Shown here piece by piece: positions 5,758-35,168 of a DNA stretch of 64,000 bases. Source of the stretch: Actinomycetota bacterium. GTDB lineage: Bacteria > Actinomycetota > Actinomycetes > Actinomycetales > Dermatophilaceae. The DNA lies in NCBI GenBank assembly GCA_020160805.1, contig JAIUPO010000019.1, positions 1 through 64,000 of the forward strand, read 5' to 3'. The position numbers and the translations under genes are program-made. The notes under the pieces are model-generated. The model did no database searches, had not been told where the DNA came from, and was given only the letters and a program-made list of their open reading frames with translations. Each line of letters opens with the position of its first letter. Within the stretch, counting starts at the first letter, position 1.

Positions 5758-6189
5758 CTAGCTCGGCAGCAGCCGCACGTCAACGAACATGCCGACAGGG
5801 GGTGCCGCGTACGGCAGCGGCTCGCCCTGGGCGTTGGTATCGCGGGAATCCGCGAACGGTCCGTCGGACGACATCAACATCCGCATGTGGTGGTCGGCGT
5901 GGTCACGCCACCAGACGCTCATTCCGAAAGTCGGCTCGAGGCGCAGCGCCTCCCAGGAGCGCCAGAGCGCGTCGAGACGACTGATCGCCTCCGGGGACTT
6001 CCACCACTCGGCCGACCACCGGTTCGGCCCCTGCGGGCCAACCCGGCGGGTGTAGGTGTAGCGCAGCCGTTCGCGCACGAACTCGTCGACCGAGCCAAAA
6101 AACAGGGTCGGCTCGGCCGCGGCGCCCGGTGCCGGCGGAGGAACCTCAGGAGTCGCCTCTTCATCCCATTCTTTGACGTCGCTGGTCAC
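5758..6189 (-). CDS. DUF4913-family protein of the conjugation cluster
   Basis: The 143-residue protein matches DUF4913 by pattern: F-V-x-E-x-L-R-x-x-Y-x-R, W-S-A-E-W-W-K-S-P-E-A-I-x-R-L-D-A-L-W-R-S-W-E, W-W-R-D-H-A-D-H-H-M. This small Trp-rich soluble family recurs at the end of actinobacterial T4SS operons next to the VirD4-like coupling protein. Its start overlaps that gene's stop by 4 bp, so they are translationally coupled. Its role is unknown. The context suggests an accessory of the coupling protein. Confidence 0.85.
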   Translation of the reverse strand: MTSDVKEWDEEATPEVPPPAPGAAAEPTLFFGSVDEFVRERLRYTYTRRVGPQGPNRWSAEWWKSPEAISRLDALWRSWEALRLEPTFGMSVWWRDHADHHMRMLMSSDGPFADSRDTNAQGEPLPYAAPPVGMFVDVRLLPS

Positions 6190-7991: not shown

Positions 7992-9601
7992 GCCGCACCC
8001 TCCGCGCGGTGCGGATCCCGCACCGCGATCAGCTCCGGCTCTTCAGGAAGGACGGGTGGTAGACGGTCCCCGGCGTGCCACATCCGGTTGGTGTCGTTCA
8101 CTGCCAGCTCCATGGCCATGAGCTGCACCTTCAGAGGCGTGCCGGGGTGCCCACCCACCTTGACCAAGAATTTGCCGCGGCCGGGAGGTTCCGCCTCCCT
8201 CCCGGTCGACGAGTCCCACGCTGGTGGGTCCTGCCAAGAGATGAGGAGATCCTGTTCCGCTTTCGACAGCGGAATGGCGGAGGTGAGCATCGACATTTCG
8301 GCACTCGGAAGCCCGCCGGCGACGACCATGCCGGCGCGTTCCACGAAGCCGCGAGCCTTCATCCGCTCCTCCTCCGTGGGGAGGGCGAGAAGGTCGCTCA
8401 TCGTGTGGGAAATCATCGCCAAACCGACGCCGCGCTGGCGGTTGAGGCGAGTCAGCGCATCGACTCGGTCGACCATGCCGCGTCCGGCGCGCAGGGCACG
8501 CCACAGCTCGTCGAGGATGACGAAGTAGTGGCGCCGCGGCTCAAGCCCGGCATCCGCCAAGGCGTTCGCAACCGTAACCGTGCCGAAGCCGGCCGACCAG
8601 CACGCCAAGAGCATCGCCGCCTGCAGGTCAGTGTCCGAGTCGTCGATGGAGGAGACGTCATAGACCACGGGCCGGTCACGAAGCATCGGTACGTCCGTCT
8701 TGCCAGCGAACGTCTCCCCCAGCCGACCACCGGAGGTGAGGCTGATGAGGGACGCTTCGAGGTTCTCGGTGATCTTCTTGTAGCGGGCGTCGTCACCGCG
8801 GTCGAGAGCGACGTCCCGCACCTCCTGCGGTGCCTCTTGGATCACCTTCAACAGGTCGCCCAGCACTGGCACGCCCTCGTTGCGCTCGTCGAGGACTTTC
8901 AGCGCGCGGTCGATGATCGACTCTTCACGGTCGGTGGGAGGCTCCTTGCGCAGGATCGTCAACAACGCCGACACCATCGTGTGGCGACGGCCGTGAGCGT
9001 CAGCCAAAACCTGCTGGCGCTCCTTCTCTTTGCCTGCTGCCCGCAACCGTTCGGCCGCCTCGATCGCCTCGCCGGGATCCAACACATTCAGGTGCCCGCG
9101 CCCGCGACCGAGAGTGATGACCTGCCCACCGAGCGCCTTGATCAGGTCGACATAGTCCGGCTTCAGGTCGCCCAGCACCAACGGCAACGCACCGAACCCG
9201 GCACCGCCGGCAGCCATGCGGCGGATGATCGTGGACTTGCCCAGCCCCGGCAGGCCCAGCACGAACACGGAAGGGTTGCCGATGAGGTTCTGCTGGAACC
9301 AGGAGATCGGGTCGCCGCAGACCGTTGACCCGTTGATGAGGTTCAAGCCCAGTGGCACGCCCACCATCGGCGTGCCGGCCCCCACAACGTATGGCCACAG
9401 CCCGCAGACCTGAACTGTCGTGCCGCGGTACTCGTCGACGGGCTGGAGGATGTTGGCCCCGCCGGCTGCGACCTGCCACCACCCTCTCGAGGAGGGACGG
9501 CGCAGTTGCTGCAGCCGCTTGGCTGTCGCCTCCTCGCGCTGCAGCCGCGCAAGAGCCTGACGTTCCTTGCGACCCTTGGTGCGGGTGCGGTCGAGACTCA
9601 C
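7988..9601 (-). CDS. VirB4-like conjugation ATPase
   Basis: The 537-residue cytoplasmic ATPase powers assembly of the conjugation channel. It has Walker A G-L-P-G-L-G-K-S-T (116-124) and a later Y-F-V-I-L-D-E-L-W-R-A (Walker B), in the arrangement of VirB4/TraC-like ATPases of actinobacterial T4SS, which are shorter than the roughly 800-residue Gram-negative VirB4. It overlaps the genes on both sides by 4 bp (SCO6880-like upstream, VirD4-like downstream), which argues for one polycistronic unit. Confidence 0.9.
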   Translation of the reverse strand: MSLDRTRTKGRKERQALARLQREEATAKRLQQLRRPSSRGWWQVAAGGANILQPVDEYRGTTVQVCGLWPYVVGAGTPMVGVPLGLNLINGSTVCGDPISWFQQNLIGNPSVFVLGLPGLGKSTIIRRMAAGGAGFGALPLVLGDLKPDYVDLIKALGGQVITLGRGRGHLNVLDPGEAIEAAERLRAAGKEKERQQVLADAHGRRHTMVSALLTILRKEPPTDREESIIDRALKVLDERNEGVPVLGDLLKVIQEAPQEVRDVALDRGDDARYKKITENLEASLISLTSGGRLGETFAGKTDVPMLRDRPVVYDVSSIDDSDTDLQAAMLLACWSAGFGTVTVANALADAGLEPRRHYFVILDELWRALRAGRGMVDRVDALTRLNRQRGVGLAMISHTMSDLLALPTEEERMKARGFVERAGMVVAGGLPSAEMSMLTSAIPLSKAEQDLLISWQDPPAWDSSTGREAEPPGRGKFLVKVGGHPGTPLKVQLMAMELAVNDTNRMWHAGDRLPPVLPEEPELIAVRDPHRAEGAA

Positions 9602-11121
9602 AGCTGCCCCCTAACTTCGGCGGGCACCTGTAGATGCTTGGGCAGCACCAAGCCGAGAGGAAGCGCGGCCGCGAACGCGGAATCCTGCGAACCGTGCACG
9701 AGGCGCACCCGCAGGCGCGCCGTGGCGGAGAGATTGTCGATCGCAGCCCTAGCGTCCTGCTCACGCTCGCGATCGGTGACCGTCGCGGTGATCAGCATCC
9801 CGAAGTTCACCAAACCAGCACCGCCCGCTTCTTCGGCCGCCGTGGCAAACGCCGCCCGCGTGCTGGCCACATTCCGGGCCGACGGCCGGTCGGATGCGGA
9901 CAGATTGAAGCTGGCCGCTCGCACGTCTGCCTCCACAATCGCCGCCGCTCGCGCAGCGTCGATCGGCCGGTACAGCAGCGTGACGCGCTTGCGCGCGATG
10001 TCACGGTGGGGCGCGAGAAGCCTCGCCAAGATTGTCGACGGTACGTTGCCTCGAGGGGCTGTGCTCATCATCCACGTCACCGACGTCGCCGAATCGTGTC
10101 GGTAAGAATCCCACCCCGCCTGATGGGCGGTCGGGCCGACCTCTGGCCACGAGAGCTCCGGCGGTTCGCCCGCAGCATTCGCTTCATCGATCAGGACCGC
10201 TGCGGCGGGGTCGTAGGCAACCCGGATCACCTCACACAGCTCCTGCGCGCTCAAAGGGTGCACGGCGCCCGCGCCGGTCGAGGACAGGCCCAAGGTCAGG
10301 CCGGGTACGCGGGACGCAAGCTCACGTCCCATCTCGTCCGCGGTGCGCTTGCGGCCGCCAGCTCGGGCTGCAGCGTTGAAGGTGAGCGCGATGTACGCAC
10401 GCACCACCGCCGCCCCCGACGGGTAGGCACCAACAATGTCGTGAAGGAGTTGCTTGGAGAACTCCGGAGCGTCGTCAGCGATGCTGTTGCTCACCATGCG
10501 CTGCAGTCGCAGCCCCGTGTCGGGTGCAGTCTCGATCGTCACCGATACGGCCTCGAGCCCCGGCTCGTCGGCCACGTTCGCAAGCCACATGCCCCACTCG
10601 GCAACCCAAATGTCCACCTGCTCACGGTCGACCAGCGAGGAGCCGTCCGGTTCCGACCCGATCACGATCGTGAAGTCCCCGGTCGACGGAACCTGGATCA
10701 TCGCGAACGGTCGGTTATAGGAATCCTTGTACTCGACGAGACGAGATCCGGCAGCAAGACCGGGAAGCTGCGCGGTGCCCCAGTCGGCCCGACCCAGCGG
10801 CCCCGACCGGTAGATGTTCTTGCGGCGAGCACGAGTGTTCACCCAACCGAATCGGGTGGCCGTCCGCGCGAGAGTGCTCTGCCCATGCTTGTCGCGTACT
10901 GCGATCAGCAGCAGGAACCCCAACGTGAGGACGGCGACCACAAAGCCCGCCAGAAGCCCGCCGATGATGGACACCACAATCGTGATGCCCGCCCCGACAA
11001 ACAGGACACCGGTGCCGATCGCCCCCAGCCCGAGCAGGCCCGGCGACTTCGGCCGCGTCCAGTTGCCGTAGGTCCGCGGGCCGTTGTGAGCTGGCTGGCT
11101 CGTCGTGGTTGTGGCGCTCAT
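9598..11121 (-). CDS. SCO6880-family T4SS membrane protein
   Basis: The 507-residue protein begins with a short cytoplasmic stretch (Y-G-N-W-T-R-P-K-S-P-G) and two membrane helices (about residues 28-75). A large soluble domain follows, with I-V-I-G-S-E-P-D-G near 165 and R-V-T-L-L-Y-R-P-I-D-A-A-R-A-A near 380. This fits the SCO6880 family, which in actinobacterial conjugation clusters combines PrgI-like anchor features with a domain upstream of VirB4. It probably anchors the ATPase. Its start lies 8 bp after the TrbL-like gene stop, and its stop overlaps the VirB4-like start by 4 bp. Confidence 0.82.
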   Translation of the reverse strand: MSATTTTSQPAHNGPRTYGNWTRPKSPGLLGLGAIGTGVLFVGAGITIVVSIIGGLLAGFVVAVLTLGFLLLIAVRDKHGQSTLARTATRFGWVNTRARRKNIYRSGPLGRADWGTAQLPGLAAGSRLVEYKDSYNRPFAMIQVPSTGDFTIVIGSEPDGSSLVDREQVDIWVAEWGMWLANVADEPGLEAVSVTIETAPDTGLRLQRMVSNSIADDAPEFSKQLLHDIVGAYPSGAAVVRAYIALTFNAAARAGGRKRTADEMGRELASRVPGLTLGLSSTGAGAVHPLSAQELCEVIRVAYDPAAAVLIDEANAAGEPPELSWPEVGPTAHQAGWDSYRHDSATSVTWMMSTAPRGNVPSTILARLLAPHRDIARKRVTLLYRPIDAARAAAIVEADVRAASFNLSASDRPSARNVASTRAAFATAAEEAGGAGLVNFGMLITATVTDREREQDARAAIDNLSATARLRVRLVHGSQDSAFAAALPLGLVLPKHLQVPAEVRGQL

Positions 11122-20363: not shown

Positions 20364-20615
20364 ATGACGACTGTCACGGCAAGCGATGCGCGTAAGTCCC
20401 TATTCCCCCTGCTGGGGCAGGTCAATGACGACCACAGCGTGGTGACCATCACCTCTAAGGCCGGTAACGGAGTTCTGATCTCTGAAGAAGACTACGAAGC
20501 GTGGCAGACGACTCTTCACCTGTTCTCTACTCCCGCCAATGCCCGCCGCCTCTCCGAAGCGCTCGAGCGTTCCGACGCCGGCAGCTACACCGCTCGGGAA
20601 CTCGACCGGGAGTGA
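20364..20615 (+). CDS. yefM: YefM/Phd-family antitoxin
   Basis: The 83-residue protein opens with T-V-T-A-S-D-A-R-K-S-L-F-P-L-L-G-Q-V and continues V-V-T-I-T-S-K-A-G-N-G-V-L-I-S-E-E-D-Y-E-A-W, the canonical YefM/Phd DNA-binding fold. The C-terminal part (S-E-A-L-E-R-S) wraps the toxin. A GGAGG ribosome-binding site lies 6 bases before the ATG. Its TGA overlaps the toxin GTG (GTGA), coupling the two genes. It neutralises the YoeB-like toxin and represses the operon, probably through the TGTACA palindrome upstream. Confidence 0.93.
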   Translation: MTTVTASDARKSLFPLLGQVNDDHSVVTITSKAGNGVLISEEDYEAWQTTLHLFSTPANARRLSEALERSDAGSYTARELDRE

Positions 20616-20872
20616 GACTCGTCTTCGATCAGGCCGGTTGGGAAGACTACCAATGGTGGCAGCTCAATGACCGTCGGCTCCTGAAGCGCATCAATACTCT
20701 GATCGACGACGCGCTTCGCACGCCTGGTGAAGGACGTGGACAACCCGAGCGGCTCAAACACCGGGCCAATGATGTTTGGTCCCGGCGCATCACTCAAGAA
20801 CACCGACTTGTGTACCGAATTGTCGGAACCGATCTCGTAGTCTTGCAGGCTCGTTTTCACTACGACGACTGA
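20612..20872 (+). CDS. yoeB: YoeB/Txe-family ribosome-dependent mRNA endonuclease toxin
   Basis: The 86-residue RelE-superfamily toxin starts at GTG 20612. It shows W-E-D-Y-Q-W-W, L-K-R-I-N-T-L-I-D-D, G-E-G-R-G-Q-P-E-R-L-K-H, W-S-R-R-I-T-Q-E-H-R-L-V-Y and the terminal F-H-Y, which carry the conserved Glu, Arg, His and Tyr of YoeB. It cuts mRNA in the ribosomal A site when free of antitoxin. Length and motifs are complete, so it should be active. The 4-bp overlap with yefM is typical. Function here: plasmid stabilisation. Confidence 0.93.
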   Translation: MRLVFDQAGWEDYQWWQLNDRRLLKRINTLIDDALRTPGEGRGQPERLKHRANDVWSRRITQEHRLVYRIVGTDLVVLQARFHYDD

Positions 20873-21290
20873 TCGTCTCTCTCCCGCGATTGCGGCGACG
20901 CGGGCGTAAGGAACCCACCGGCCTCACCCTTTTCGCGCAAAACGATCGACCCGACTACCGGCGCTATCCCCGAGCTCGAGCTGGACGTTTCGACCACGGA
21001 GCTGCGGCTGGGCTGGTAGCCGCAGGCATCCTGCGCACAGAGAAGATCACGGCCGCTCAAGCGGCCTGACGGAGCCCGCAAGCGGGCCAGGTGCCCAAAC
21101 AGCTAATTGCCCTTCCGGCTCGCCGACCGTAGCTCGCTCCCGACCCTGCGTGCCCTCCGGGCGCTATTTGCAGACTCCGGCTACGCCTGCGCTTAGCAAC
21201 CGCACCCCTCAAGCACTCCAGGCCGTCCGCTCTCAATCGATCTCTGTTGCCGGAAAGGCAAAAGAAACAGTTGATCAAGGGGAAAAAACC
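20873..21290 (+). promoter_or_regulatory. Leader region A upstream of ssb (repeated element)
   Basis: This 418-bp gene-free stretch holds the first copy of an element also found upstream of the parB-like and LPD29 genes. Block 1 is 21108-21132 (CCGGCTCGCCGACCGTAG), block 2 is 21161-21203 (CGCTATTTGCAGACTCCGGC then TAGCAACCGC), and block 3 is 21230-21268, containing CTCTG followed by the hairpin TTGCC-GGAAA-GGCAA. An AAGGGG ribosome-binding site follows. The first 200 bp hold nothing recognised. Conservation in non-coding DNA suggests a shared promoter or origin-like signal. Confidence 0.7.
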
Positions 21291-21689
21291 ATGACGGACA
21301 TCATCACCCTCAGAGGATTGGTCGCCACCACCCCGCGCCACGTCGTCACCAGCGACGGACTGCCGATCACATCCTTCCGCCTCGCAAGCACCACGCGCCG
21401 GTTCGACCGCACCGAGAACCGATGGCTCGACGGCGAAACCAACTGGTACACCATCACCGCGTTCCGCCAGCTGGCCGTCAACGCAGCGCAGTCCATCACC
21501 AAAGGGCAGCGCATCATCCTCACCGGAGTCGTCCGCATCCGCGAATGGGAAAGCGACGAGCGGACCGGAACCAACGTCGAGGTCGAAAGCGAATCGATCG
21601 GACACGACCTCGCATGGGGCACCGCCGTATTCAGCCGAAGCGTGAGCACCCCGAGCGAGCAGGAGCCCGCCGAAGCCGTCAGCGCCTAA
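21291..21689 (+). CDS. ssb: Single-stranded DNA-binding protein
   Basis: The 132-residue protein has the OB-fold pattern of SSB: I-T-L-R-G-L-V-A-T-T-P, I-T-S-F-R-L-A-S-T-T-R-R-F-D-R, W-Y-T-I-T-A-F-R-Q-L-A-V-N-A-A, K-G-Q-R-I-I-L-T-G-V-V-R-I-R-E-W. The tail is short and lacks the usual acidic D-D-x-P-F end that recruits host proteins, so it may coat DNA without replisome contacts. A plasmid SSB protects single-stranded DNA entering a recipient. It lies first in the repeated-leader block and is followed by a strong hairpin terminator. Confidence 0.9.
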   Translation: MTDIITLRGLVATTPRHVVTSDGLPITSFRLASTTRRFDRTENRWLDGETNWYTITAFRQLAVNAAQSITKGQRIILTGVVRIREWESDERTGTNVEVESESIGHDLAWGTAVFSRSVSTPSEQEPAEAVSA

Positions 21690-21707
21690 GCGTCGCCGTC
21701 AACCACC

Positions 21708-21740
21708 GTGGGCCGACCTGAAACAGGCAGGTCGGCCCAC
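21708..21740 (+). terminator. 13-bp hairpin terminator after ssb
   Basis: GTGGGCCGACCTG, a short loop and CAGGTCGGCCCAC form a perfect 13-bp stem 18 bp after the ssb stop. There is no clear T tail, as is common in high-GC actinobacteria. Confidence 0.85.
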
Positions 21741-21784
21741 TCCCCCAAACATCAGCAAGCACAACTCACAACTTGGAGAACGCA

Positions 21785-22699
21785 ATGACCACCACGACCA
21801 GCACCCTCGACAGCATCCACCAGCAGCACCACGGCCTCACCGCCGACCAGATAGCGCGCGTCATCCTGTCCTGCGTGCTCGAGCCCGGCGACTCCGAAGC
21901 CGGAAAGCTCGTCGCAACCATCGGCGCATACGCGACCGTTCAGGCCATCTTCGACACCGAGGACGACCCGAGCACCGCGCAGCTACGAGAGCGCACAGTC
22001 CCCCGGTTCAGCAGCGGCAACATCGCACAAGCACTCCGCGCCGCGACCCGGCACGGTGCAACCCTCATCACGCCCGAGCACCCGCACTGGCCCACCCGTA
22101 TGAACGATCTCGCGGACATCGCCCCGGTGGCCCTGTGGGTCCGTGGCAACAGTGAGATCCTCACCGACGAGAAAACCACCGCCATCGTCGGCGCCCGAGC
22201 GGCCACCGGCTACGGAGAGCACATCACCATGGAAATCGCCGCAGGACTCGTCGACCGCGGACACACCATCGCTTCAGGAGCCGCCTACGGCATCGACGGC
22301 ATGGCACACCGGGCGGCTCTCGCGTCAGGAGGGCGCACCATCGCCTACCTCGCCGGGGGTGTCGACCGGTTCTACCCGGCAGGGCACGACGCATTGCTGA
22401 CCCGCATCGCTGAGGCCGGAGCAGTCGTTTCCGAACTCCCCTGCGGCGCAGCCCCGACCCGCTGGCGCTTCCTGCAACGAAACCGGCTCATCGCAGCCAA
22501 CAGCTCCTCCGTACTGGTCACCGAAGCAGGATGGCGCTCCGGCTCACTAGGGACCGCAAGTCACGCCGCTACCCTCGGCCGACCCGTAGGAGCAGTGCCC
22601 GGACCGGTGACCAGCGCGGCATCCGCCGGAACACACCGCCTCATCCGAGACCACGCCGCAACCCTCGTCACCAACTCAGAGGAGGCCGCCGAGCTGTAG
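21785..22699 (+). CDS. dprA: DprA/Smf-family DNA-processing protein
   Basis: The 304-residue protein has the DprA Rossmann domain: A-I-V-G-A-R-A-A-T-G-Y-G (about 131-142), I-A-S-G-A-A-Y-G-I-D-G-M-A-H-R (about 162-176), A-Y-L-A-G-G-V-D, E-A-G-A-V-V-S-E-L-P, F-L-Q-R-N-R-L-I-A and G-P-V-T-S-A-A-S-A-G. DprA binds single-stranded DNA and loads RecA. On a plasmid beside ssb it may act on incoming DNA. The start is ATG 21785 after a GGAG site. The upstream region is only the ssb terminator plus 44 bp, so it alone in this block lacks its own repeated leader. A hairpin terminator follows. Confidence 0.9.
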   Translation: MTTTTSTLDSIHQQHHGLTADQIARVILSCVLEPGDSEAGKLVATIGAYATVQAIFDTEDDPSTAQLRERTVPRFSSGNIAQALRAATRHGATLITPEHPHWPTRMNDLADIAPVALWVRGNSEILTDEKTTAIVGARAATGYGEHITMEIAAGLVDRGHTIASGAAYGIDGMAHRAALASGGRTIAYLAGGVDRFYPAGHDALLTRIAEAGAVVSELPCGAAPTRWRFLQRNRLIAANSSSVLVTEAGWRSGSLGTASHAATLGRPVGAVPGPVTSAASAGTHRLIRDHAATLVTNSEEAAEL

Positions 22700-22703
22700 G
22701 CCA

Positions 22704-22736
22704 CGACAGGCCGGCCCTGCCGGGGCCGGCCTGTCG
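22704..22736 (+). terminator. 13-bp hairpin terminator after dprA
   Basis: CGACAGGCCGGCC, a 7-base loop and GGCCGGCCTGTCG make a perfect stem 4 bp after the stop codon. Confidence 0.85.
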
Positions 22737-22996
22737 CTCCCCGGCTTGTCCCTCACCAAGAAGCGCATCGGAACCGCCGTACACGGCGGTGCAGCAGCAG
22801 TGACAACCTGCCAGGTTGCCCTTCCGGCGCGCCGACCGTAGTTCGCTCCGGCCGCTTCGTTCCTGGCTTTCGCGGCATATCCTCGCTCGCTTCGCTCACT
22901 GCGGTATTCCACGACCAGGCACTGCGCAGCCTCCACTCCCAAACGATCTCTGTGCCGGAACGGCAACAAAAACAGTCGATCAAGGAGACAAGAACC
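22737..22996 (+). promoter_or_regulatory. Leader region B upstream of the parB-like gene (repeated element)
   Basis: The second copy of the element. Block 1 is at 22816-22847 (CTTCCGGCGCGCCGACCGTAGTTCGC). Block 3 is at 22934-22974, with ACGATCTCTG and the hairpin TGCCG-GAA-CGGCA, then a GATCAAGGAG ribosome-binding region matching copy A. Block 2 is replaced by a different segment (22865-22915, CTTTCGCGGCATATCCTCGC then GCGGTATTCCACGACC), which recurs inverted at 32859-32900. A separate hairpin, ACCGCCGT-AC-ACGGCGGT, lies near 22770. Confidence 0.7.
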
Positions 22997-24418
22997 ATGA
23001 CAGACACCATCACGCTCGGCACCATCGAGCACATCGACCCCGCGCAGATCGAGGTCGAAACGAACGTGCGAACGATCGTGAAAGTCGACACCGCTCTCGT
23101 AGCCAGCATCCGCGAGTTCGGAGTCCTCGAACCTGTCGTCTGCCGCCGCAGCACCGAGGGCACGGTCAGCGTTCGGATGGGGCAGCGTCGAGTGCTCGCC
23201 GCCAGAGAAGCCGGACGGACCACCATCCCGGCCTACATCGTGGAGGGCGACGATTCGACCGTGACCCGGCTCGTGGAACAGTTCGCCGAGAACGAGCACC
23301 GTGCCGACCTGACCGAACCCGAACGCGCCGCCGTGTTCCAGCAGCTGGCGTTCGAAGGCCTCAGCGTTCCTCAAATCGCCAAGCAGACGGGCGTCAAGAA
23401 GGCCGTAGTCGAGGCGGGAATCAAGGTCGCCGATAGCCAGTTCGCCGGTCAGCTCGCCAGCAAGCACGAAGTGACCCTCGATCAGGCAGCCGCACTGATC
23501 GAATTCGAAGATGACAAAGAGGCAGTGAGCCGACTCGTCCAGTATGCCGAAGAGAGCCCCGACCAGTTCGCCCACGAGCTGCAGCGCCAGCGCGATAACC
23601 GGGTGCGCGCCGACGCCGTCGCCGCCGAGCGCACCACTCTGATCGAGATGGGCTACACCATCCTCGAATCACGCCCGGACTCCTACTACGACAAAGAGCA
23701 CACCAGCATCCGCGATCTGGTCACAGCCGAAGGCGAACCGGTCACCGTCGAGCACCTGACCGACGTCACCCCGAAGTTCGCCCACGTCCGCTCGTTCTAC
23801 ACCGGCGACGTCGACGTGGCCTACTACGTCACCGACCCCAAGGCGCACGGCTTCAGGAAGGTCAGCGCCAGCGGGAACGTCAGCGGACCCATGAGCGAGG
23901 AGCAGAAGGCCGAGCGAAAGACGCTCATCGCCAACAACAAGGCGTGGGCATCGGCGGAAGTTGTCCGACGCGAGTGGCTGGCAACGCTCCTGTCCCGCAA
24001 GACCCTCCCGAAGGATGCCAGCCCCTTCATCGCACAGGCGCTCACGGCACACCGCAACACCATCGCGGCAGCCATCGGCAACGGCAACAGGCTCGCGGCA
24101 TCACTGCTGAGCCTCGACGCCCCCGACTCGTACTGGGCAGCCAGCCCACTCGACACCCTCGCCGCAAGCCAGCCCGGCAAAGCCGGGCACATCGCCCTCG
24201 CCGTGGTGATCGGCGGGTATGAGGCGAGCACCGGAAAGCACACATGGCGAAACCCCGGACGTGACGCGTTCGCCTACTTCACACAACTCGCTGCATGGGG
24301 TTACCCGTTGTCAGAGGTGGAGCAGATCGTCGCCGACGCCACCCCCGCTGAGCGTCCGGCACCTGAGCCTGACCCCGACGACGCTGATGAGGTCGACCCG
24401 GACGAGTTCGAGGGCTAA
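22997..24418 (+). CDS. ParB/RepB/Spo0J-family protein (leading-region type)
   Basis: The 473-residue protein starts with a ParB N-terminal nuclease-like domain: I-D-P-A-Q-I, S-I-R-E-F-G-V-L-E-P-V-V, M-G-Q-R-R-V-L-A-A-R-E-A-G, and F-A-E-N-E-H-R-A-D-L-T-E. A helix-turn-helix follows (L-S-V-P-Q-I-A-K-Q-T-G-V-K-K-A-V-V), then a long unique C-terminal region with an acidic tail (D-P-D-D-A-D-E-V-D-P-D-E-F). It is separate from the parA locus 1.3 kb downstream and resembles the ParB-like proteins of conjugative leading regions more than a partition CTPase. A DNA-binding or regulatory role on entering DNA is inferred. Confidence 0.82.
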   Translation: MTDTITLGTIEHIDPAQIEVETNVRTIVKVDTALVASIREFGVLEPVVCRRSTEGTVSVRMGQRRVLAAREAGRTTIPAYIVEGDDSTVTRLVEQFAENEHRADLTEPERAAVFQQLAFEGLSVPQIAKQTGVKKAVVEAGIKVADSQFAGQLASKHEVTLDQAAALIEFEDDKEAVSRLVQYAEESPDQFAHELQRQRDNRVRADAVAAERTTLIEMGYTILESRPDSYYDKEHTSIRDLVTAEGEPVTVEHLTDVTPKFAHVRSFYTGDVDVAYYVTDPKAHGFRKVSASGNVSGPMSEEQKAERKTLIANNKAWASAEVVRREWLATLLSRKTLPKDASPFIAQALTAHRNTIAAAIGNGNRLAASLLSLDAPDSYWAASPLDTLAASQPGKAGHIALAVVIGGYEASTGKHTWRNPGRDAFAYFTQLAAWGYPLSEVEQIVADATPAERPAPEPDPDDADEVDPDEFEG

Positions 24419-24425
24419 CGAGCAT

Positions 24426-24451
24426 CTGGCCCCGGCAATCGTCGGGGCCAG
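24426..24451 (+). terminator. Hairpin terminator after the parB-like gene
   Basis: CTGGCCCCG, an 8-base loop and CGGGGCCAG form a perfect 9-bp stem 8 bp after the stop codon. Confidence 0.8.
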
Positions 24452-24723
24452 ACCGCCCGCCGAACGGAGCCGCCTGGTCGGCGGCGCTCAGCTGACCAAG
24501 CCGAGCCGGCACGGAGGCCGGCGCTGACAATTCCTCTGGCCTCTGGCCTGTCCGGCTCGCCGACCGTAGTTCGCTACGCCGCTCCCGTGCCCCGCCATTC
24601 GCTATTTGCAGACTCCGGCTCACGCCTTCGCGTAGCAACCGCTCAGACGGATCACTCACGCGCCTCCCGCTCTCAAACGATCTCTGTGCCGGAAAGGCCA
24701 AAGAAACGACGAGGGAGAAAACG
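24452..24723 (+). promoter_or_regulatory. Leader region C upstream of the LPD29 gene (repeated element)
   Basis: The third copy of the element. Block 1 is at 24549-24575 (TCCGGCTCGCCGACCGTAGT), block 2 at 24599-24641 (CGCTATTTGCAGACTCCGGC then GTAGCAACCGC) and block 3 at 24668-24706 (CTCTCAAACGATCTCTGTGC then the GGAAAGGC hairpin). A GAGGGAG ribosome-binding site precedes the ATG. Spacing between blocks is the same as in copy A within a few bases. Confidence 0.7.
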
Positions 24724-25263
24724 ATGACAACCCAGTACATCAGCACCAAGGAGACCGCCGCGATGCTGCGAAAGGATCTCGCGAAAGCATGGCCCGGAGT
24801 GAAGTTCAGCGTCCGCATGGGCACCGGCACCGGATCCGCGTGGCTCAGCGTGACCTACATCGACGGCCCCACCTACTCGGACCTCGCGCTGTTCTGCGGC
24901 AACTACGAAGGGCGCAGCTTCAACGGCATGACCGACGGTTACGACAGCAAGGGAACCCTCCTTCTCGTCACCTCAGGTGACGAGCTGCCCGCCGAAGTCG
25001 CATTCATGTGTGACGGGATCAACAGCCATCGGAACTACTCCCCCGCCGCCCGAATTCACGCTCAGAAGATGATCGACGAGGCCGGGCACACCGAACTTCG
25101 AACCTGCACCGACAGTGGAGAACCAATCCACAACGGCCCCGTGCCGACTGAGATTGTCATCGGCGGGCACTACTTCGACTACCTGTACTCCCCCGCAGGC
25201 CTCGCCGAGCGCATCCTGTCCGGCATCGACCTGTCCATGGTGACCGGCGCGACCAAGCACTGA
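24724..25263 (+). CDS. Stand-alone LPD29-domain protein
   Basis: The 179-residue protein begins Q-Y-I-S-T-K-E-T-A-A-M-L-R-K-D-L-A-K-A-W-P-G-V-K-F-S-V-R, the recognisable start of LPD29 (large polyvalent protein associated domain 29). I-D-G-P-T and N-Y-E-G-R-S-F-N-G-M-T-D-G-Y-D follow. The domain is usually found inside giant phage or conjugative-element proteins thought to be delivered into or made early in a new host. Here it is a free protein in the block with ssb, dprA and the parB-like gene. Its biochemical role is unknown. Confidence 0.75.
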   Translation: MTTQYISTKETAAMLRKDLAKAWPGVKFSVRMGTGTGSAWLSVTYIDGPTYSDLALFCGNYEGRSFNGMTDGYDSKGTLLLVTSGDELPAEVAFMCDGINSHRNYSPAARIHAQKMIDEAGHTELRTCTDSGEPIHNGPVPTEIVIGGHYFDYLYSPAGLAERILSGIDLSMVTGATKH

Positions 25264-25283: not shown

Positions 25284-25308
25284 GTGAGGGGGCTCGCTGC
25301 CCCCTCAC
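25284..25308 (+). terminator. 10-bp hairpin terminator after the LPD29 gene
   Basis: GTGAGGGGGC, a 5-base loop and GCCCCCTCAC form a perfect stem 20 bp after the stop. Confidence 0.8.
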
Positions 25309-25439: not shown

Positions 25440-25735
25440 GGTAGAAGGGCGGAACTTACAGACTTCGGAACTTACAGACTCTGTAAGTTCGCGGGAAACA
25501 ACTTACAGAGTCCGGAAGTCTGTTACTGTCGGAGTCTGTAAGTAACAGACTTTGGTAGTTCCAAACTTACAGACTCTGTAAGTGGCGAGGGCTTAGGGCG
25601 TCTTACCACTCACAGACTCTGTAACTAACAGAGTTACAGAGTCCCGAACTTACAGAGTTGAACCTCCGCAGAGGGCAAAGAAAGCTCGACACCCCGACTT
25701 ACAGACTCCGGAACTTACAGACTTACAGATTGGAT
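25440..25735. repeat. Iteron-like centromere (parS) and parA promoter region
   Basis: About 300 bp carry at least eight direct copies of a core ACTTACAGA (for example at 25455, 25470, 25501, 25565, 25649, 25697, 25713 and 25723) and at least three inverted copies TCTGTAAGT. At 25470-25488 and 25565-25583 they meet head-to-head as ACTTACAG-ACT-CTGTAAGT. Degenerate copies (CACAGACTCTGTAAC, AACAGAGTTACAGAGTC) fill the gap. The array ends about 12 bp before the parA ATG. Repeats in this position next to parA and a small DNA-binding partner are typical centromere and autoregulation sites. It could also contain origin iterons. Confidence 0.85.
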
Positions 25736-25741
25736 AGAGAC

Positions 25742-26407
25742 ATGCGCATCGTCACGATCGCCAACCAAAAGGGCGGGGCCGGGAAGACCACCACGGTCAT
25801 GAACCTCGCCAGCATCCTTTCCGAAAACTCACGAGTCCTGGTCGCGGACGTCGACCCGCAGAAGTCGTCCGCATGGTGGGCCGACCGGGCCGGCAACGAC
25901 CTGCCGTTCGATGTCGTTGACGACACCAACCCCTCGAACCTGTCTCGCCTCCGGGAGCTGCAGTACGACGTAGTGCTCGTGGACACTCCCGGCTCGCTGG
26001 AGGGACGCGACGTCCTAGCCACCGTGCTCACCGAGTCAGACTTCGTGATTCTCCCGACCGAACCCTCACCGCTCGCATTCGCGCCTCTGATCGCGACGAT
26101 CAACGAGATCGTCCTGCCCTCCAAAGTGACCTACCGAGTGATGCTGAACAAGATCGACCCGCGCGTTCCGGTCGAGCTCACCGATGCCGAAGCACTGCTC
26201 GACGGCGCCGGCCTGCTCCGGTTCAAGTCGGCGATCCGTGACTACAAGATCCACAAGATGGCGCCGGTCGAAGGCAAGGTCGTCACCCAATATGCCGACG
26301 GCGACTCCCGCATCGCCGCCAAGGCCCGCGAGGACTATCGCAGGGTCGCCCTGGAGCTGACATCGCTCTGGGCTCACACCGGAACACGAGCAGGCGTAGG
26401 AGCATAA
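25742..26407 (+). CDS. parA: ParA partition ATPase
   Basis: The 221-residue protein has the deviant Walker A K-G-G-A-G-K-T-T (residues 10-17), D-V-D-P-Q-K-S-S-A-W-W and V-V-L-V-D-T-P-G (Walker B region). It is the short type Ib ParA without an N-terminal DNA-binding domain. It moves plasmid copies along the nucleoid when stimulated by a centromere-bound partner. The start is ATG 25742; a longer frame from 25658 is translated centromere repeat and is rejected. The partner gene begins 2 bp downstream and the repeats lie immediately upstream. Confidence 0.93.
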   Translation: MRIVTIANQKGGAGKTTTVMNLASILSENSRVLVADVDPQKSSAWWADRAGNDLPFDVVDDTNPSNLSRLRELQYDVVLVDTPGSLEGRDVLATVLTESDFVILPTEPSPLAFAPLIATINEIVLPSKVTYRVMLNKIDPRVPVELTDAEALLDGAGLLRFKSAIRDYKIHKMAPVEGKVVTQYADGDSRIAAKAREDYRRVALELTSLWAHTGTRAGVGA

Positions 26408-27063: not shown

Positions 27064-27105
27064 ATAGTCAGCACGCGCTGTATGATCAGTGCATGCTGAC
27101 TATTG
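27064..27105. promoter_or_regulatory. CmtR operator/promoter with inverted repeat over the start codon
   Basis: AATAGTCAGCA (27064-27074) and TGCTGACTATT (27095-27105) form a perfect 11-bp inverted repeat spaced by 20 bp. A -10-like TATGAT sits inside it at 27081-27086, only 6 bases before the ATG, and no ribosome-binding site is present, so the transcript is probably leaderless. The right arm overlaps the first codons. This is a plausible self-repression site for the ArsR-family sensor. Confidence 0.65.
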
Positions 27106-27452
27106 CTCCGCGCCTCGACGTCATGAACCGGCTCGGCCGGGCGATGGCGGATCCGACGCGCTCTCGGATTCTGATGACCCTGCTCAGGGGGCCGAGCTAC
27201 CCGGCTGTCCTTTCGCGTGAGCTGGAACTCACCCGTTCGAACGTGTCGAACCATCTGACGTGTTTGCGTGACTGTGGGATCGTCGTTTCCGAGCCGGAGG
27301 GGAGGCAGACTCGCTACGAGATCGCGGACCCGCATCTCGCGGAGGCGTTGAATGCGCTCGTGGATGTGACGCTGGCCGTCGACGAGAACGAGCCGTGCGT
27401 GGATGCCTCCTGCACCGTGCCGGGATGCTGCGGTACCAGGGCTGACGCGTGA
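27093..27452 (+). CDS. cmtR: CmtR-type Cd(II)/Pb(II)-sensing ArsR-family repressor
   Basis: The 119-residue winged-helix repressor matches Mycobacterium CmtR closely. Cys57 and Cys61 lie in the recognition helix (N-H-L-T-C-L-R-D-C-G) and Cys102 in the C-terminal tail (P-C-V-D-A-S-C), the three known metal ligands. Extra cysteines follow (C-T-V-P-G-C-C-G). Metal binding should release the operator and induce the efflux operon. The ATG at 27093 is chosen because the sequence upstream is promoter-like. Its stop overlaps the ATPase GTG by 4 bp. Confidence 0.92.
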   Translation: MLTIAPRLDVMNRLGRAMADPTRSRILMTLLRGPSYPAVLSRELELTRSNVSNHLTCLRDCGIVVSEPEGRQTRYEIADPHLAEALNALVDVTLAVDENEPCVDASCTVPGCCGTRADA

Positions 27453-29359
27453 GCGCGGTGACGAAGTCTCAGGTGGAGGGTTCTGCGGTCGACGATGATG
27501 ATGACGACGACCATGACGGGCCGTGGTGGAAGGATCGCGGGATCATGGTCCCGGTGTTCTCGGGTATCGCATTCCTCGCGGGCCTGGTCTGTGAGTGGTC
27601 GGGTGCGGGGATCCCGGCACTGGTGCTGTTCTGGATCGGATTGCTGCTGGGCGCGTCGACGTTCACGCCTGGGGCGATCTGGAAGCTATTCAAGGGAAAA
27701 CTTGGTATCGGTCTTCTGATGACGATCAGCGCGGTTGGCGCGGTCATCCTCGGCTACGTAGAGGAAGCGGCCGCGCTGGCGTTCCTCTATTCGATCGCTG
27801 AAGCGCTCGAGGACAAGGCGATGGACCGCGCCCGCGGCGGCCTGCGCGCACTGTTGAAGCTCGTCCCGGAGACCGTGACAGTGCGCCGCGACGGGGCCTC
27901 GGTCGAGATCGCGGCGAAGGCTCTCACCGTCGGCCAGATCATGCTTGTTCGTCCGGGGGAGCGGGTCGCGACGGACGGGATCGTCCGCTCGGGGCGTTCC
28001 AGCCTGGATACCTCCGCGATCACTGGCGAGTCGATTCCGGTCGAGGTCGAGCCTGGTGACGCGGTGTCCGCCGGTTCGATCAACACCTCTGGGGCGCTTG
28101 AGATCGAGGCTTCCGCAGCGGGCGCGGACAACTCGCTGACCACGATCGTGGAGCTGGTCGAGCAGGCACAGGCGGAGAAGGGTGACCGTGCGCGTCTCGC
28201 GGACCGGATCGCTCGCCCCCTGGTTCCCGGCGTGCTGATCCTTGCCGCGCTGGTCGCGCTCATCGGGTCGCTGTTCGGCGACCCGGAGCTGTGGATCACC
28301 CGGGCTCTCGTCGTGCTCGTCGCCGCCTCGCCGTGTGCACTGGCAATCTCTGTGCCGCTCACGGTCGTCGCCGCGATCGGCGCGGCCAGCAAGTTCGGCG
28401 TGATCATCAAGTCCGGCGCAGCCTTCGAACGATTCGGGACGATCCGCCACGTCGCCGTCGACAAGACCGGCACCCTCACCCGCAACCAGCCGGCCGTCAC
28501 CGCGGTCCTCACCGTCGACGGAGTGACCGAGCGACAGGCCCTCGACTGGGCGGCCGCGCTGGAGCAACACAGTACACACCCGCTCGCTGCCGCGATCACC
28601 GCCGCTGCCCCCGGCATCCCTGCGGCGGTTGACGTGACCGAGCAGGCCGGGAACGGCATCGAAGGCACCGTCGACGGGACACGGATCACAGTCGGCAGTC
28701 CCCGCTGGCTCGACGCCGACAGGCTCGGGAGCCAGGTCACGAGCCTGGAGGAGCAGGGTATGACCGTCGTGATCGTGCACCGCGACGGAACACCGGTCGC
28801 CGCGATCGGCGTCCGCGACGAGCTGCGCCCCGAGGTCCCGGAGGTCGTTCGCACCCTCGCAGACCAGGGTGTCGGGGTAACCATGCTGACCGGCGACAAC
28901 GCCCGCACCGCGCGCGCTCTCGCCGCGCAAGCCGGGATCAGCGACGTGCGCGCCGAGCTGCGCCCAGAGGACAAGGCCGCGGCGATCGGCGAGCTGTCTC
29001 AGGCGGGATCGGTCGCGATGATCGGCGACGGCATCAACGACGCCCCCGCCCTCGCCGCCGCGGATATCGGCATCGCGATGGGAGCCACTGGCTCCGACGC
29101 CGCGATCGAGTCCGCGGATGTCGCTTTCACCGGGCATGACCTGCGCCTCATCCCGCGCGCGTTCGACCACGCCCGCCGGGGACGCCGCATCATCAACCAG
29201 AACATCATCCTGTCGCTGCTGATCATCACCGCCCTGCTCCCGCTTGCGCTATTCGGCGTCCTCGGGCTCGCGGCCGTCGTCCTGGTCCACGAGATCGCGG
29301 AAGTCATCGTGATCCTCAACGGGCTCCGCGCGGCGCGCACCCGAAAGGCGGTCTCGTGA
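27449..29359 (+). CDS. cadA: CadA-type heavy-metal P-type ATPase (Cd/Zn/Pb efflux)
   Basis: The 636-residue membrane ATPase has an acidic stretch (D-D-D-D-D-D-D-H-D, residues 15-23) in place of an N-terminal metal-binding domain. Then come membrane helices, T-G-E-S (about 191-194), the metal-site motif S-P-C (A-A-S-P-C-A-L-A-I), D-K-T-G-T-L-T, the H-P locus (T-H-P-L-A-A-A), M-L-T-G-D-N and G-D-G-I-N-D-A-P-A-L. S-P-C and the P1B-type layout fit the Zn/Cd/Pb group. It exports metal from the cytoplasm. It is coupled to cmtR upstream and overlaps the lspA start by 4 bp. Confidence 0.93.
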   Translation: MSAVTKSQVEGSAVDDDDDDDHDGPWWKDRGIMVPVFSGIAFLAGLVCEWSGAGIPALVLFWIGLLLGASTFTPGAIWKLFKGKLGIGLLMTISAVGAVILGYVEEAAALAFLYSIAEALEDKAMDRARGGLRALLKLVPETVTVRRDGASVEIAAKALTVGQIMLVRPGERVATDGIVRSGRSSLDTSAITGESIPVEVEPGDAVSAGSINTSGALEIEASAAGADNSLTTIVELVEQAQAEKGDRARLADRIARPLVPGVLILAALVALIGSLFGDPELWITRALVVLVAASPCALAISVPLTVVAAIGAASKFGVIIKSGAAFERFGTIRHVAVDKTGTLTRNQPAVTAVLTVDGVTERQALDWAAALEQHSTHPLAAAITAAAPGIPAAVDVTEQAGNGIEGTVDGTRITVGSPRWLDADRLGSQVTSLEEQGMTVVIVHRDGTPVAAIGVRDELRPEVPEVVRTLADQGVGVTMLTGDNARTARALAAQAGISDVRAELRPEDKAAAIGELSQAGSVAMIGDGINDAPALAAADIGIAMGATGSDAAIESADVAFTGHDLRLIPRAFDHARRGRRIINQNIILSLLIITALLPLALFGVLGLAAVVLVHEIAEVIVILNGLRAARTRKAVS

Positions 29360-32778: not shown

Positions 32779-33060
32779 CACAGACCCCTCTCTCACATCT
32801 CCCATTGCCTTTCGGCACACGCCGAAAACAGCGCCAGGAGTCGAGCGTCAAGGGACCGTGGAATACCGGAGCGCAGCGAGGATATGCCGCGAAAGCCCTT
32901 GATGGTCGGGGAGTGGTGCGTACCCTTCCCGGTGCGAAAGGCAACGGAGTTGCCGTGCCGGCGCAGCCGGCCAACAACATCGCGGAGCTTTGCTCCGGCT
33001 CTCTGGGCTTTTCGATCCGAGGACACTGCTGCGCACTGTCTGGATGGCGTTCCAAACGGA
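32779..33060 (-). promoter_or_regulatory. Leader region D, inverted partial copy of the repeated element
   Basis: On the minus strand this stretch carries GTGTGCCGAAAGGCA (about 32818-32804), the same hairpin as in leaders A-C, ahead of the small operon start at 32778. It also carries CTTTCGCGGCATATCCTCGC followed by CCGGTATTCCACGG (about 32898-32861), the segment seen in leader B. Other GC-rich hairpins (GCCGGC...) lie at 32955-32972. It links the small operon to the ssb/parB-like/LPD29 set. No gene is seen on either strand. Confidence 0.6.
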
Positions 33061-33065
33061 GCAAG

Positions 33066-33165
33066 CTATAAGTTTATGTTCCATAAACCGGCTTGGAGGC
33101 TAGACGCGGGGCGTCCTGCCTCGGCATACTTGTCGTATGACGCCCCGCCAGGAGGCGGGGTCGCT
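33066..33165. other. Candidate oriT: cluster of nested inverted repeats upstream of mobC
   Basis: Four perfect inverted repeats fall within about 90 bp: GTTTATG-TTC-CATAAAC (33072-33088); GCGGGGCGTC (33106-33115) with GACGCCCCGC (33139-33148); CATAC-TTGTC-GTATG (33125-33139) nested inside it; and CCCCGCC-AGGA-GGCGGGG (33143-33160), which competes with the second. They end 30 bp before mobC. Nested or competing hairpins next to MobC and relaxase genes are the usual sign of a transfer origin. The nick site cannot be named. Confidence 0.65.
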
Positions 33166-33189: not shown

Positions 33190-33588
33190 GTGACTGAGAG
33201 CCATGATCGCGGTGTCTTCGGTCGCCGCCGGCGTGCGAATGCGACGCCGGGGGAGAAGCGCTCGAAGCGCTACCCGGTGACCGTGACGCCGGCCGAGGCG
33301 GCCGAGCTCGAGGCGAAGGCTGCGGCCGCTGGCATGAGCGTGCCGCGGCTGCTGCACGAGTCCGCGAAGAGCGCGCACGTCGAGACGAGCACCGAGCGGA
33401 AGGCGGCGATCGCGGAGCTGTTCAGCGTCCGTCGCGAGGTCGCCGGCATTGCCACGAACCTGAACCAGCTGGCCCGGTACGCGAACACGGAGGGAACCTT
33501 CCCGGCCGAGGCCGAGGCGGTCACTGCCGAGTTCCGTGCACTGTTCCCGAGGGTCACCGCGGCGGTTGATCGGCTGGCCGACTCGTGA
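33190..33588 (+). CDS. mobC: MobC-family relaxosome accessory protein
   Basis: From GTG 33190 (ribosome-binding GGGGGGAGGG) the 132-residue basic protein shows K-R-Y-P-V-T-V-T-P-A-E-A-A-E-L-E-A-K-A-A-A-A-G-M-S-V-P-R-L-L (ribbon-helix-helix) and E-V-A-G-I-A-T-N-L-N-Q-L-A-R-Y-A-N, the MobC domain core. MobC opens or bends oriT to help the relaxase nick. The candidate oriT lies immediately upstream and the relaxase gene overlaps its stop by 1 bp. Longer upstream frames read through the oriT repeats and are rejected. Confidence 0.88.
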   Translation: MTESHDRGVFGRRRRANATPGEKRSKRYPVTVTPAEAAELEAKAAAAGMSVPRLLHESAKSAHVETSTERKAAIAELFSVRREVAGIATNLNQLARYANTEGTFPAEAEAVTAEFRALFPRVTAAVDRLADS

Positions 33589-35168
33589 TGCCGAACGTGA
33601 CGCGAGGCGACCGCATGGGCGGTCTGCTGAGCTACCTCGCGGGGGAGGGGCGCTCGAACGAGCACACCGAGCCGCACCTGGTGAACGGCGACTCTGCGAC
33701 GTTCACCTTCTTCGGTGATAGCGAGCTTGCACCGTCAACGGCGTTGGCGATCGCCAAGCACCTCGACGAGCCCCGGACGGCGTTCGGGGTCGAGGTCAAC
33801 GGCGGCCACGTCTGGCACGCCAGCCTCAGCCTCCGTGCTGAGGAGGGGCAGCTGACCGACGAGCACTGGGCGACGATCGCGGAGCAGTTCGTCGACCGGA
33901 TGGGATTCACGGAAGGCTCCGGCAAGGCCGGCTGCCGGTGGGTGGCCGTTCGGCACGGCCTGTCGAAGGCCGGCAACGACCACATCCACATCGCGGTCAA
34001 CCTGGTGCGCGAGGACGGCACGAAGGCGTCGATCCATCACGACTACTCGCGGGCTCAGTCGATCGCCCGCGAGCTGGAGCAGGAGCACGGACTGCAGCTG
34101 CTCGAGTCGCGCGGGTCGGACATGGCCATGCGCGGGGAGCGACCAGGGGAGCGGGAGATAGCGAACCGCCGCGGCGATGACACGTTGGCGTCCGTGCGCC
34201 TCGAGCGGAGCGTGCGAGCGGCCGCTGCAGCCTCACTCGACGAGGGCGAGTTCGTGCGCCGGCTGCACCAGGCCGGCGTGCTCGTGCGGCCACGCTTCGC
34301 CGCCGATCGCGACGATGTTGTGGCCGGCTACTCCGTCGCGCTTCGACCCGGGAACCGGGACGAGACGATTGTCTGGCATGGGGGAGGGCGACTCGCCCGT
34401 GACCTGACCTTGCCGCGGCTTCGGGACGGCTGGCCGGACACCCCACAGGCGGCGCAGGCCGGCGTCGACGAGTGGCGAGCGACCTGGCGAAACCCGATGC
34501 GGTACACGCCGGTCGCCCCCGGCCGGGAGCAGCACGAGCCCGGCCCCGAGTTGTGGCGCGAGTACACCGACCAGGTGACGCAGTTGCGCGACCAGCTCAG
34601 CGCCGTGGACCCGACCGACCGTGCGACGTGGGCGCGGGTGGCTCGCGAAACCAGCGGCGCGTTCGCCGCATGGTCGCAGCGTGTCGAGGCGACACCCGGC
34701 CCCCTGGCGGATGCTTCGCGGACGCTCGCCCGCACGGCTCAGATCCGAGCCCGCGACGTGCGGCCGAAGAACACGGCCGGCCCTCGCTCGATCGCCGGCG
34801 CGGCGAACCTCCTGGCCATGGCGACCACCCATGGCCAGGGCACGCAGGCTGAGGCCATGCTGTTCCGTCAGCTGATGCGCACAGCGCAGGCGATCTACTC
34901 CATGCACCAAGCCGTCGACGAGTCACGACGTGCGGCGGAGATCCGCAACGCGCTCGGCGCGCGACTGGATGCCGTGCGAGCCCGGATGCCCGAACTCGCG
35001 GGGTTTGCTACAGGCGAGGTCGCGGCGGAAAGTCCGATGACCGAGAGGCTGCGCCAGGCCACCGGAGGGCAGGCGCCGGCACGACCGGCAGCCAGCCCAC
35101 TCCCGACGCCGCTCACGTCGCGGCCCCAGGTACCGACTACGCCGCCCGATCGCGGCGCCGAGAGATAG
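33588..35168 (+). CDS. MOBP-type relaxase (MobA/VirD2 family)
   Basis: The 526-residue relaxase carries its catalytic domain in residues 1-190. L-L-S-Y-L-A-G-E-G-R near the start may hold the active Tyr. H-V-W-H-A-S-L-S-L follows, then the metal-binding motif N-D-H-I-H-I-A-V-N-L-V (about 127-137) with two His. The C-terminal two thirds are helical and Pro/Arg-rich at the end, with no helicase or primase signature. It nicks oriT and is carried as a protein-DNA complex through the VirD4-like coupling protein. It overlaps mobC by 1 bp (TGATG). Confidence 0.88.
   Translation: MPNVTRGDRMGGLLSYLAGEGRSNEHTEPHLVNGDSATFTFFGDSELAPSTALAIAKHLDEPRTAFGVEVNGGHVWHASLSLRAEEGQLTDEHWATIAEQFVDRMGFTEGSGKAGCRWVAVRHGLSKAGNDHIHIAVNLVREDGTKASIHHDYSRAQSIARELEQEHGLQLLESRGSDMAMRGERPGEREIANRRGDDTLASVRLERSVRAAAAASLDEGEFVRRLHQAGVLVRPRFAADRDDVVAGYSVALRPGNRDETIVWHGGGRLARDLTLPRLRDGWPDTPQAAQAGVDEWRATWRNPMRYTPVAPGREQHEPGPELWREYTDQVTQLRDQLSAVDPTDRATWARVARETSGAFAAWSQRVEATPGPLADASRTLARTAQIRARDVRPKNTAGPRSIAGAANLLAMATTHGQGTQAEAMLFRQLMRTAQAIYSMHQAVDESRRAAEIRNALGARLDAVRARMPELAGFATGEVAAESPMTERLRQATGGQAPARPAASPLPTPLTSRPQVPTTPPDRGAER

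Follow-up and report, generated by a model that had tools for sequence, protein, structure and literature searches.

In the 64,000 nucleotides analyzed here (positions 1 to 64,000 of contig JAIUPO010000019.1, designated C19 of a Dermatophilaceae genome; hereafter the window), three genes encoding an SSB, a ParB-like protein and an LPD29 protein are each preceded by related non-coding DNA. The question raised by this locus is what these leaders (A, B and C) do, together with a fourth, inverted copy (D) next to a candidate origin of transfer (oriT). An initial inspection of the letters alone (hereafter the sequence-only reading) took the leader for an early-entry promoter acting on single-stranded DNA. 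The results presented below make it probable that leaders A-C are leading-region hairpins that form on single strands and work like the Frpo/ssi elements, with the entering strand serving early transcription, priming or both. The evidence that carries this interpretation consists of stems that covary among dissimilar copies, wobble pairs that concentrate on the template strand, and the recurrent placement of the elements directly before establishment genes.

Layout of the block and of oriT

The window contig is conjugative plasmid-like, with a MOBP relaxase, a MobC protein and conjugation ATPases. The features on which the argument depends are the following.

21107-21290, plus strand: leader A, before ssb; type II core at 21162-21203; outer arms TTGCCCTTCCGGC (21107-21119) and GCCGGAAAGGCAA (21249-21261)
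21291-21689, plus strand: ssb, encoding an SSB of 132 amino acids (PF00436, 8e-17)
21785-22699, plus strand: dprA-like gene, encoding a DprA of 304 amino acids (PF02481, 1e-66), without a leader of its own
22816-22996, plus strand: leader B, before the parB-like gene; outer arms at about 22816-22829 and 22954-22967
22865-22913, plus strand: type I core of leader B, the 49-bp cross-phylum element; predicted folding strand minus (transferred)
22997-24418, plus strand: parB-like gene, 473 amino acids with a ParB_N domain (PF02195, 1e-9)
24546-24723, plus strand: leader C, before the LPD29 gene; type II core at 24600-24642
24724-25263, plus strand: LPD29 gene, 179 amino acids (PF18847, 3e-22)
32857-32897, minus strand: copy D, divergent from mobC, with a type I core some 160 bp away from the oriT motif
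about 32800-32945, minus strand: leader of copy D, reading into a 31-amino-acid open reading frame (ORF) and then two more small ORFs
33058-33089, minus strand: oriT candidate, an inverted repeat followed by the conserved ATAGCTTGC, with a presumed nic position
33190-33588, plus strand: mobC/nikA-like accessory gene (PF21983, PF05713)
33585-35168, plus strand: MOBP relaxase gene (PF03432)

The motif GCAAGCTAT and the inverted repeat at 33058-33089 are kept upstream of mobC in related loci, a conservation that bears out the oriT candidate placed at 33.1 kb by the sequence-only reading. The cleaved strand of known oriT sites carries the inverted repeat on the 5' side of the nick. As the repeat has this position relative to the presumed nic when the minus strand is read, the minus strand would be the one transferred and transfer would proceed leftwards; the genes of the block would therefore use the transferred strand as template. 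The mobC and relaxase genes are located to the right of the oriT motif and the ssb-LPD29 block to its left, on the side opposite the relaxase and between the rep/partition genes and oriT. The ssb, dprA, parB-like and LPD29 genes all point toward oriT, as they do on related plasmids, and the same layout is found on Curtobacterium, Gulosibacter and Burkholderia plasmids and on F. The geometry of oriT, MobC and relaxase, the gene content, the orientation and this common layout uphold the assignment of the block to a leading region. The sequence-only reading had counted against itself the 8 kb of cargo that separate the block from oriT, but this objection is not serious, because the leading region of F spans more than 10 kb. 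The cargo is of the heavy-metal kind and includes, at 27093-29359, an ArsR-type regulator and a cadmium/zinc P-type ATPase.

The leaders and a core shared across phyla

In each leader, an inner core hairpin is enclosed by an outer inverted repeat that closes just 5' of the ribosome-binding region. The type I core of leader B and copy D has the form GGCTTTCGCGGCATATCC ... GGTATTCCACG, and the type II core of leaders A and C the form CGCTATTTGCAGACTCC ... TAGCAACCGC. Leaders A and C are 80.5% identical over 159 nt and leaders A and B 71% over about 199 nt, while leaders B and C align as two blocks of 91% and 85% identity. The blocks common to leaders A-C have a chance expectation of 0, and their matches in the whole genome are these three only. 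The description of the leaders as near-identical thus holds for the shared flanking blocks, but not for the leaders as wholes, which are modular, contain two core types and are 71-81% identical overall. A search of 150 genomes of the family for the type II core matched the window only; forms of this core are present in four of the loci compared here.

The type I core has a far wider range. The 49-bp core of leader B is 81-96% identical on plasmids of Actinomycetota and of alpha-, beta- and gammaproteobacteria. BLAST searches with leader B returned 247 to 289 plasmid records, mostly from Burkholderia and Pseudomonas and almost always intergenic, and a search of 50,697 phage records with the same query at an E-value of 0.01 gave no match. 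A pattern scan of one genome per species identified at least 118 such stretches, from Actinomycetota, alpha-, beta- and gammaproteobacteria and Bacillota, and a scan of IMG/VR contigs a further 27. On the F plasmid (NC_002483.1), the core is located at 54,009-54,056 (locus L163:6010-6057), 110 bp before the leading-region DNA methylase gene, in the orientation of the leading genes and at a site separate from Frpo1 and Frpo2. Among 5,426 complete E. coli genomes, 3,412 have homologues of a 116-bp F segment, with 5,120 plasmid and 54 chromosomal places (99% plasmid). Because flanking F sequence was part of the query, which overlaps in part with an annotated hypothetical protein, these counts measure the F-type unit and not the core alone. 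With the core present in several phyla, on F and on phage contigs, the attribution of the leader to an actinobacterial plasmid proved far too narrow. A search for the exact core string in open-access papers returned unrelated primers only. On E. coli p67_89, the surrounding 335-bp unit occurs twice, before DUF1281 and methylase genes. A third sequence type is represented by a 355-bp leader common to F (L163:8396-8750) and ColIb-P9 (L165:5745-6098), 95% identical between them and situated before an antirestriction (ardA-type) gene.

The genomic settings of the core were assessed from protein matches around 192 copies, which replaced ORF-based neighbour statistics that are unreliable in GC-rich loci. 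Four settings were distinguished: establishment genes, the oriT side, inovirus-type contigs and transposases. There are 53 cases of an establishment gene (ParB, NrdH, ArdC, SSB, DNA methylase and others) within 200 bp of the core. Gene and core share a strand in 52 of them, and in 47 the gene is downstream, the median distance being 104 bp. One Gulosibacter leading region harbors a row of four cores, and annotated ArdC and NrdH genes directly follow two of these. Beside oriT, D-type copies are divergent from mobC and relaxase in 17 of 17 cases, and copy D of the window is among them; its inversion, which the sequence-only reading had noted as an objection, is thereby confirmed as the habit of a conserved class that the simple model leaves unexplained. 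On contigs with inovirus-type Rep or Zot genes, all labelled cases have the coding (viral) strand as template strand, and the core is a probable minus-strand origin of many inovirus-like contigs. Inovirus-like contigs carrying it include loci L131, L133, L134, L136, L138, L147, L149 and L153. Small MobV plasmids carry it in either orientation. In Lachnospiraceae and Geobacillus (Bacillota), the core lies 6-48 bp behind transposase genes, in antisense; these transposases belong to different families, namely a 490-amino-acid family, IS256 and ISNCY (L015, L028, L033, L044, L083, L103, L125 and others). Another stretch of conserved non-coding DNA, CCTTCCGGCGAGGACGGG..., follows the transposase-linked core in Lachnospiraceae. 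The possibility that the core is itself an oriT was rejected, as it is found beside MOBF, MOBP and MOBV relaxases and on phages.

Folding and folding strand

Comparison among copies supports folding of both parts of the leader. Beyond its fixed letters, the inner stem covaries: across 68 dissimilar copies, the value for a copy's own arms was 8.3, against 4.6 ± 0.15 for permuted arms (0/20,000 permutations). The outer arms vary freely and nonetheless stay self-complementary, with 13.6 against 9.5 ± 0.4 when permuted in 29 dissimilar leaders (0/20,000).

The strand that folds can be approached through tolerated mismatches. If the mRNA-like strand folds, G-T wobbles should be tolerated on it, and if the template strand folds, these should appear as A-C on the mRNA-like strand. 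Wobbles were counted inside stems, with Watson-Crick pairs on both sides and fixed letters left out. The inner stems presented 40 A-C against 3 G-T wobbles, that is, template-strand wobbles prevail, and the leading class taken by itself presented 13 against 1. Raw folding energies also differ between strands (78/83), but shuffles attribute over half of this difference in leading copies to base composition, and it counts for little here. For this reason, the wobbles were also set against a null based on composition; composition by itself predicts a 62% share for A-C, and the excess persists (p = 5e-6). Folding energies judged against the same kind of expectation point the same way, though less strongly: the template strand of leading copies is favoured by -4.5 kcal/mol versus -2.9 from composition (p = 0.003), and the excess is clearly larger for inovirus and transposon copies and nil for D-type copies. 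Of 125 distinct apical hairpins, 62 have GCGNAGC, which we take to be the exceptionally stable GNA DNA mini-hairpin, on the template strand, and a single one has it on the opposite strand. Two further possibilities weighed from the sequence, UNCG-type RNA loops and attC-like sites, were dropped.

Function, competing explanations and surroundings

In the mechanism that we favour, the transferred minus strand would enter the recipient and each leader would fold into a long two-part hairpin, the outer stem shutting just 5' of the ribosome-binding region and the inner core hairpin often being tipped by the GCGNAGC mini-hairpin. The folded strand could then recruit the host transcription machinery, so that the adjoining SSB, ParB-like or LPD29 gene would be transcribed before or during second-strand synthesis, which the same RNA may prime. 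The computations bear on position, orientation, conservation, covariation and strand bias; that RNA polymerase recognises the folded strand and that expression is early and transient are the parts of this scheme that we infer. The single-strand part of the sequence-only proposal gains indirect support from the covarying stems, the template wobble bias and the occurrence on single-stranded DNA phages; the word promoter, with no -35/-10 boxes to point to, stays conjectural.

The closest known elements are Frpo (ssiD) of F and ssi2/ssi3 of ColIb-P9, described as leading-region single-strand promoters (Masai and Arai 1997, as cited in PMC9849209, PMC11541004 and PMC7690428); Frpo provides both early transcription and second-strand priming (PMC9849209, PMC7690428). 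Like Frpo/ssi, the present leaders lie in the leading region before ssb/parB-type genes, occur in repeated copies and have the transferred strand as predicted template, and, as in Frpo1 and Frpo2 of F, the hairpin folds better on the template strand. They nevertheless form a different sequence family: the present core is absent from Frpo1 and Frpo2, and F holds these two and, at the third site at 54.0 kb, the present core. Unlike in Frpo, no -35/-10 boxes are recognised in the leaders, and the phylogenetic range is far wider. In the work of Samuel et al. (2024, PMC11541004), Frpo' and Frpo* are putative single-strand promoters predicted upstream of leading-region genes, chosen by -35/-10 and UP-element consensus; this description sets them apart from the present core, and the two sets may overlap. 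The sso of rolling-circle plasmids and sso1 of ICEBs1 are single-strand hairpins that start second-strand synthesis in an orientation-dependent manner (PMC4595007). The likeness to sso drawn here is one of description, and the present core stands before genes and across phyla. The promoters of the phage N4 virion RNA polymerase are small GNA-loop DNA hairpins recognised on single strands; they differ in their phage-encoded polymerase, short hairpins and unrelated context.

Several observations weigh against leaders acting as early-entry elements on the transferred strand. The D-type class is oriented opposite to the leading copies, so that it turns its other face to the transferred strand, and lacks strand bias; such copies might be ordinary divergent promoters or might act on the strand that the donor retains. 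An exact core is also present on a microvirus (bajarodmic virus 506, L168:1537-1584), in the sense opposite to that of the inoviruses, and behind transposases an early-entry promoter has no obvious sense. Compared individually with shuffled sequences, leaders A, B and C show no greater stability (z of 0.05, -1.2 and -0.7), a genuine weakness for leaders A and C, whose folding is supported by the outer-stem comparison. The predicted folding strand is in all cases a comparative assignment, and no recognisable -35/-10 was found in the stems.

The strongest alternative, which we nonetheless regard as unlikely, is that the core is mainly a complementary-strand origin of the ssi/sso type, priming the second strand on any single-stranded replicon, with the proximity to genes being secondary. 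Its occurrence on inovirus-like contigs, where the viral strand serves as template, on the microvirus and on small MobV plasmids speaks for such an origin, but the presence of several copies per leading region, each at a fixed distance before its own gene, exceeds the needs of an origin. The two functions are moreover compatible, since Frpo performs both in vitro (PMC7690428).

Less probable still is that the leaders belong to a plasmid regulon as ordinary double-strand promoters or operators, with a plasmid or host regulator binding to the palindromes. The modular build with shared flanking blocks would suit this, as would copy D, which reads away from oriT, and the D-type copies without strand bias. 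Covarying arms of free sequence and strand-asymmetric wobbles are, however, unexpected for a duplex site, and a single regulator common to several phyla and to single-stranded DNA phages is unlikely. A double-strand sigma-70 scan of the block, with a consensus not specific to actinobacteria, found no -35/-10 pair and no conventional promoter; TTGAC recurs in the core-adjacent arm of many non-actinobacterial copies. A structured RNA, either a 5' untranslated mRNA leader or an antisense RNA from the opposite strand, appears very improbable: covariation suits RNA equally well, and the mRNA-like strand is the one that folds in the inovirus and transposase settings, but the wobbles of leading genes sit on the strand opposite the mRNA and therefore disfavour a 5' leader, an antisense RNA would need an unseen promoter, Rfam covariance models gave no match, and the recurring GCGNAGC loop is presumably a stable DNA mini-hairpin.

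A broader interpretation can also be entertained, that one sequence-defined single-strand DNA signal, served by conserved host machinery in at least three phyla, is a general start signal for mobile DNA with a single-stranded stage, used by conjugative plasmids (F included), filamentous phages, small mobilisable plasmids and transposons; we hold this tentatively, as a proposition that falls somewhat short of an even chance. For Frpo of F, protective genes have been shown to be expressed from incoming plasmid DNA that is still single-stranded; for other systems this has been proposed on the strength of weaker similarity. The core offers a sequence handle for locating leading regions in several phyla. 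If it is true that the same signal primes the replication of single-stranded DNA phages, plasmids would become established through the entry point that phages use for second-strand synthesis.

Further features of the window include the hairpins behind the block genes and the conjugation genes at its left.

21708-21740: perfect hairpin of 13 bp, after ssb
22704-22736: perfect hairpin of 14 bp, after dprA
24425-24452: perfect hairpin of 10 bp, after the parB-like gene
25284-25308: perfect hairpin of 10 bp, after the LPD29 gene
6186-7991, minus strand: VirD4-like coupling protein
7988-9601, minus strand: VirB4-like ATPase
9598-11121, minus strand: SCO6880 family conjugation gene

The hairpins had been presented as perfect terminators of the three leader-bearing genes. 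A perfect hairpin does follow every gene of the block, dprA included, but the T-tract of an intrinsic terminator is present in none of the four. Directly upstream of the block, at 20364-20872, lies a toxin-antitoxin pair of the Phd/YefM-YoeB type. Downstream of it, a dense array of CTTACAGACTC/GAGTCTGTAAG inverted repeats at 25440-25740, probably a centromere or operator, precedes the gene for ParA (25742-26407) and that for a small partner.

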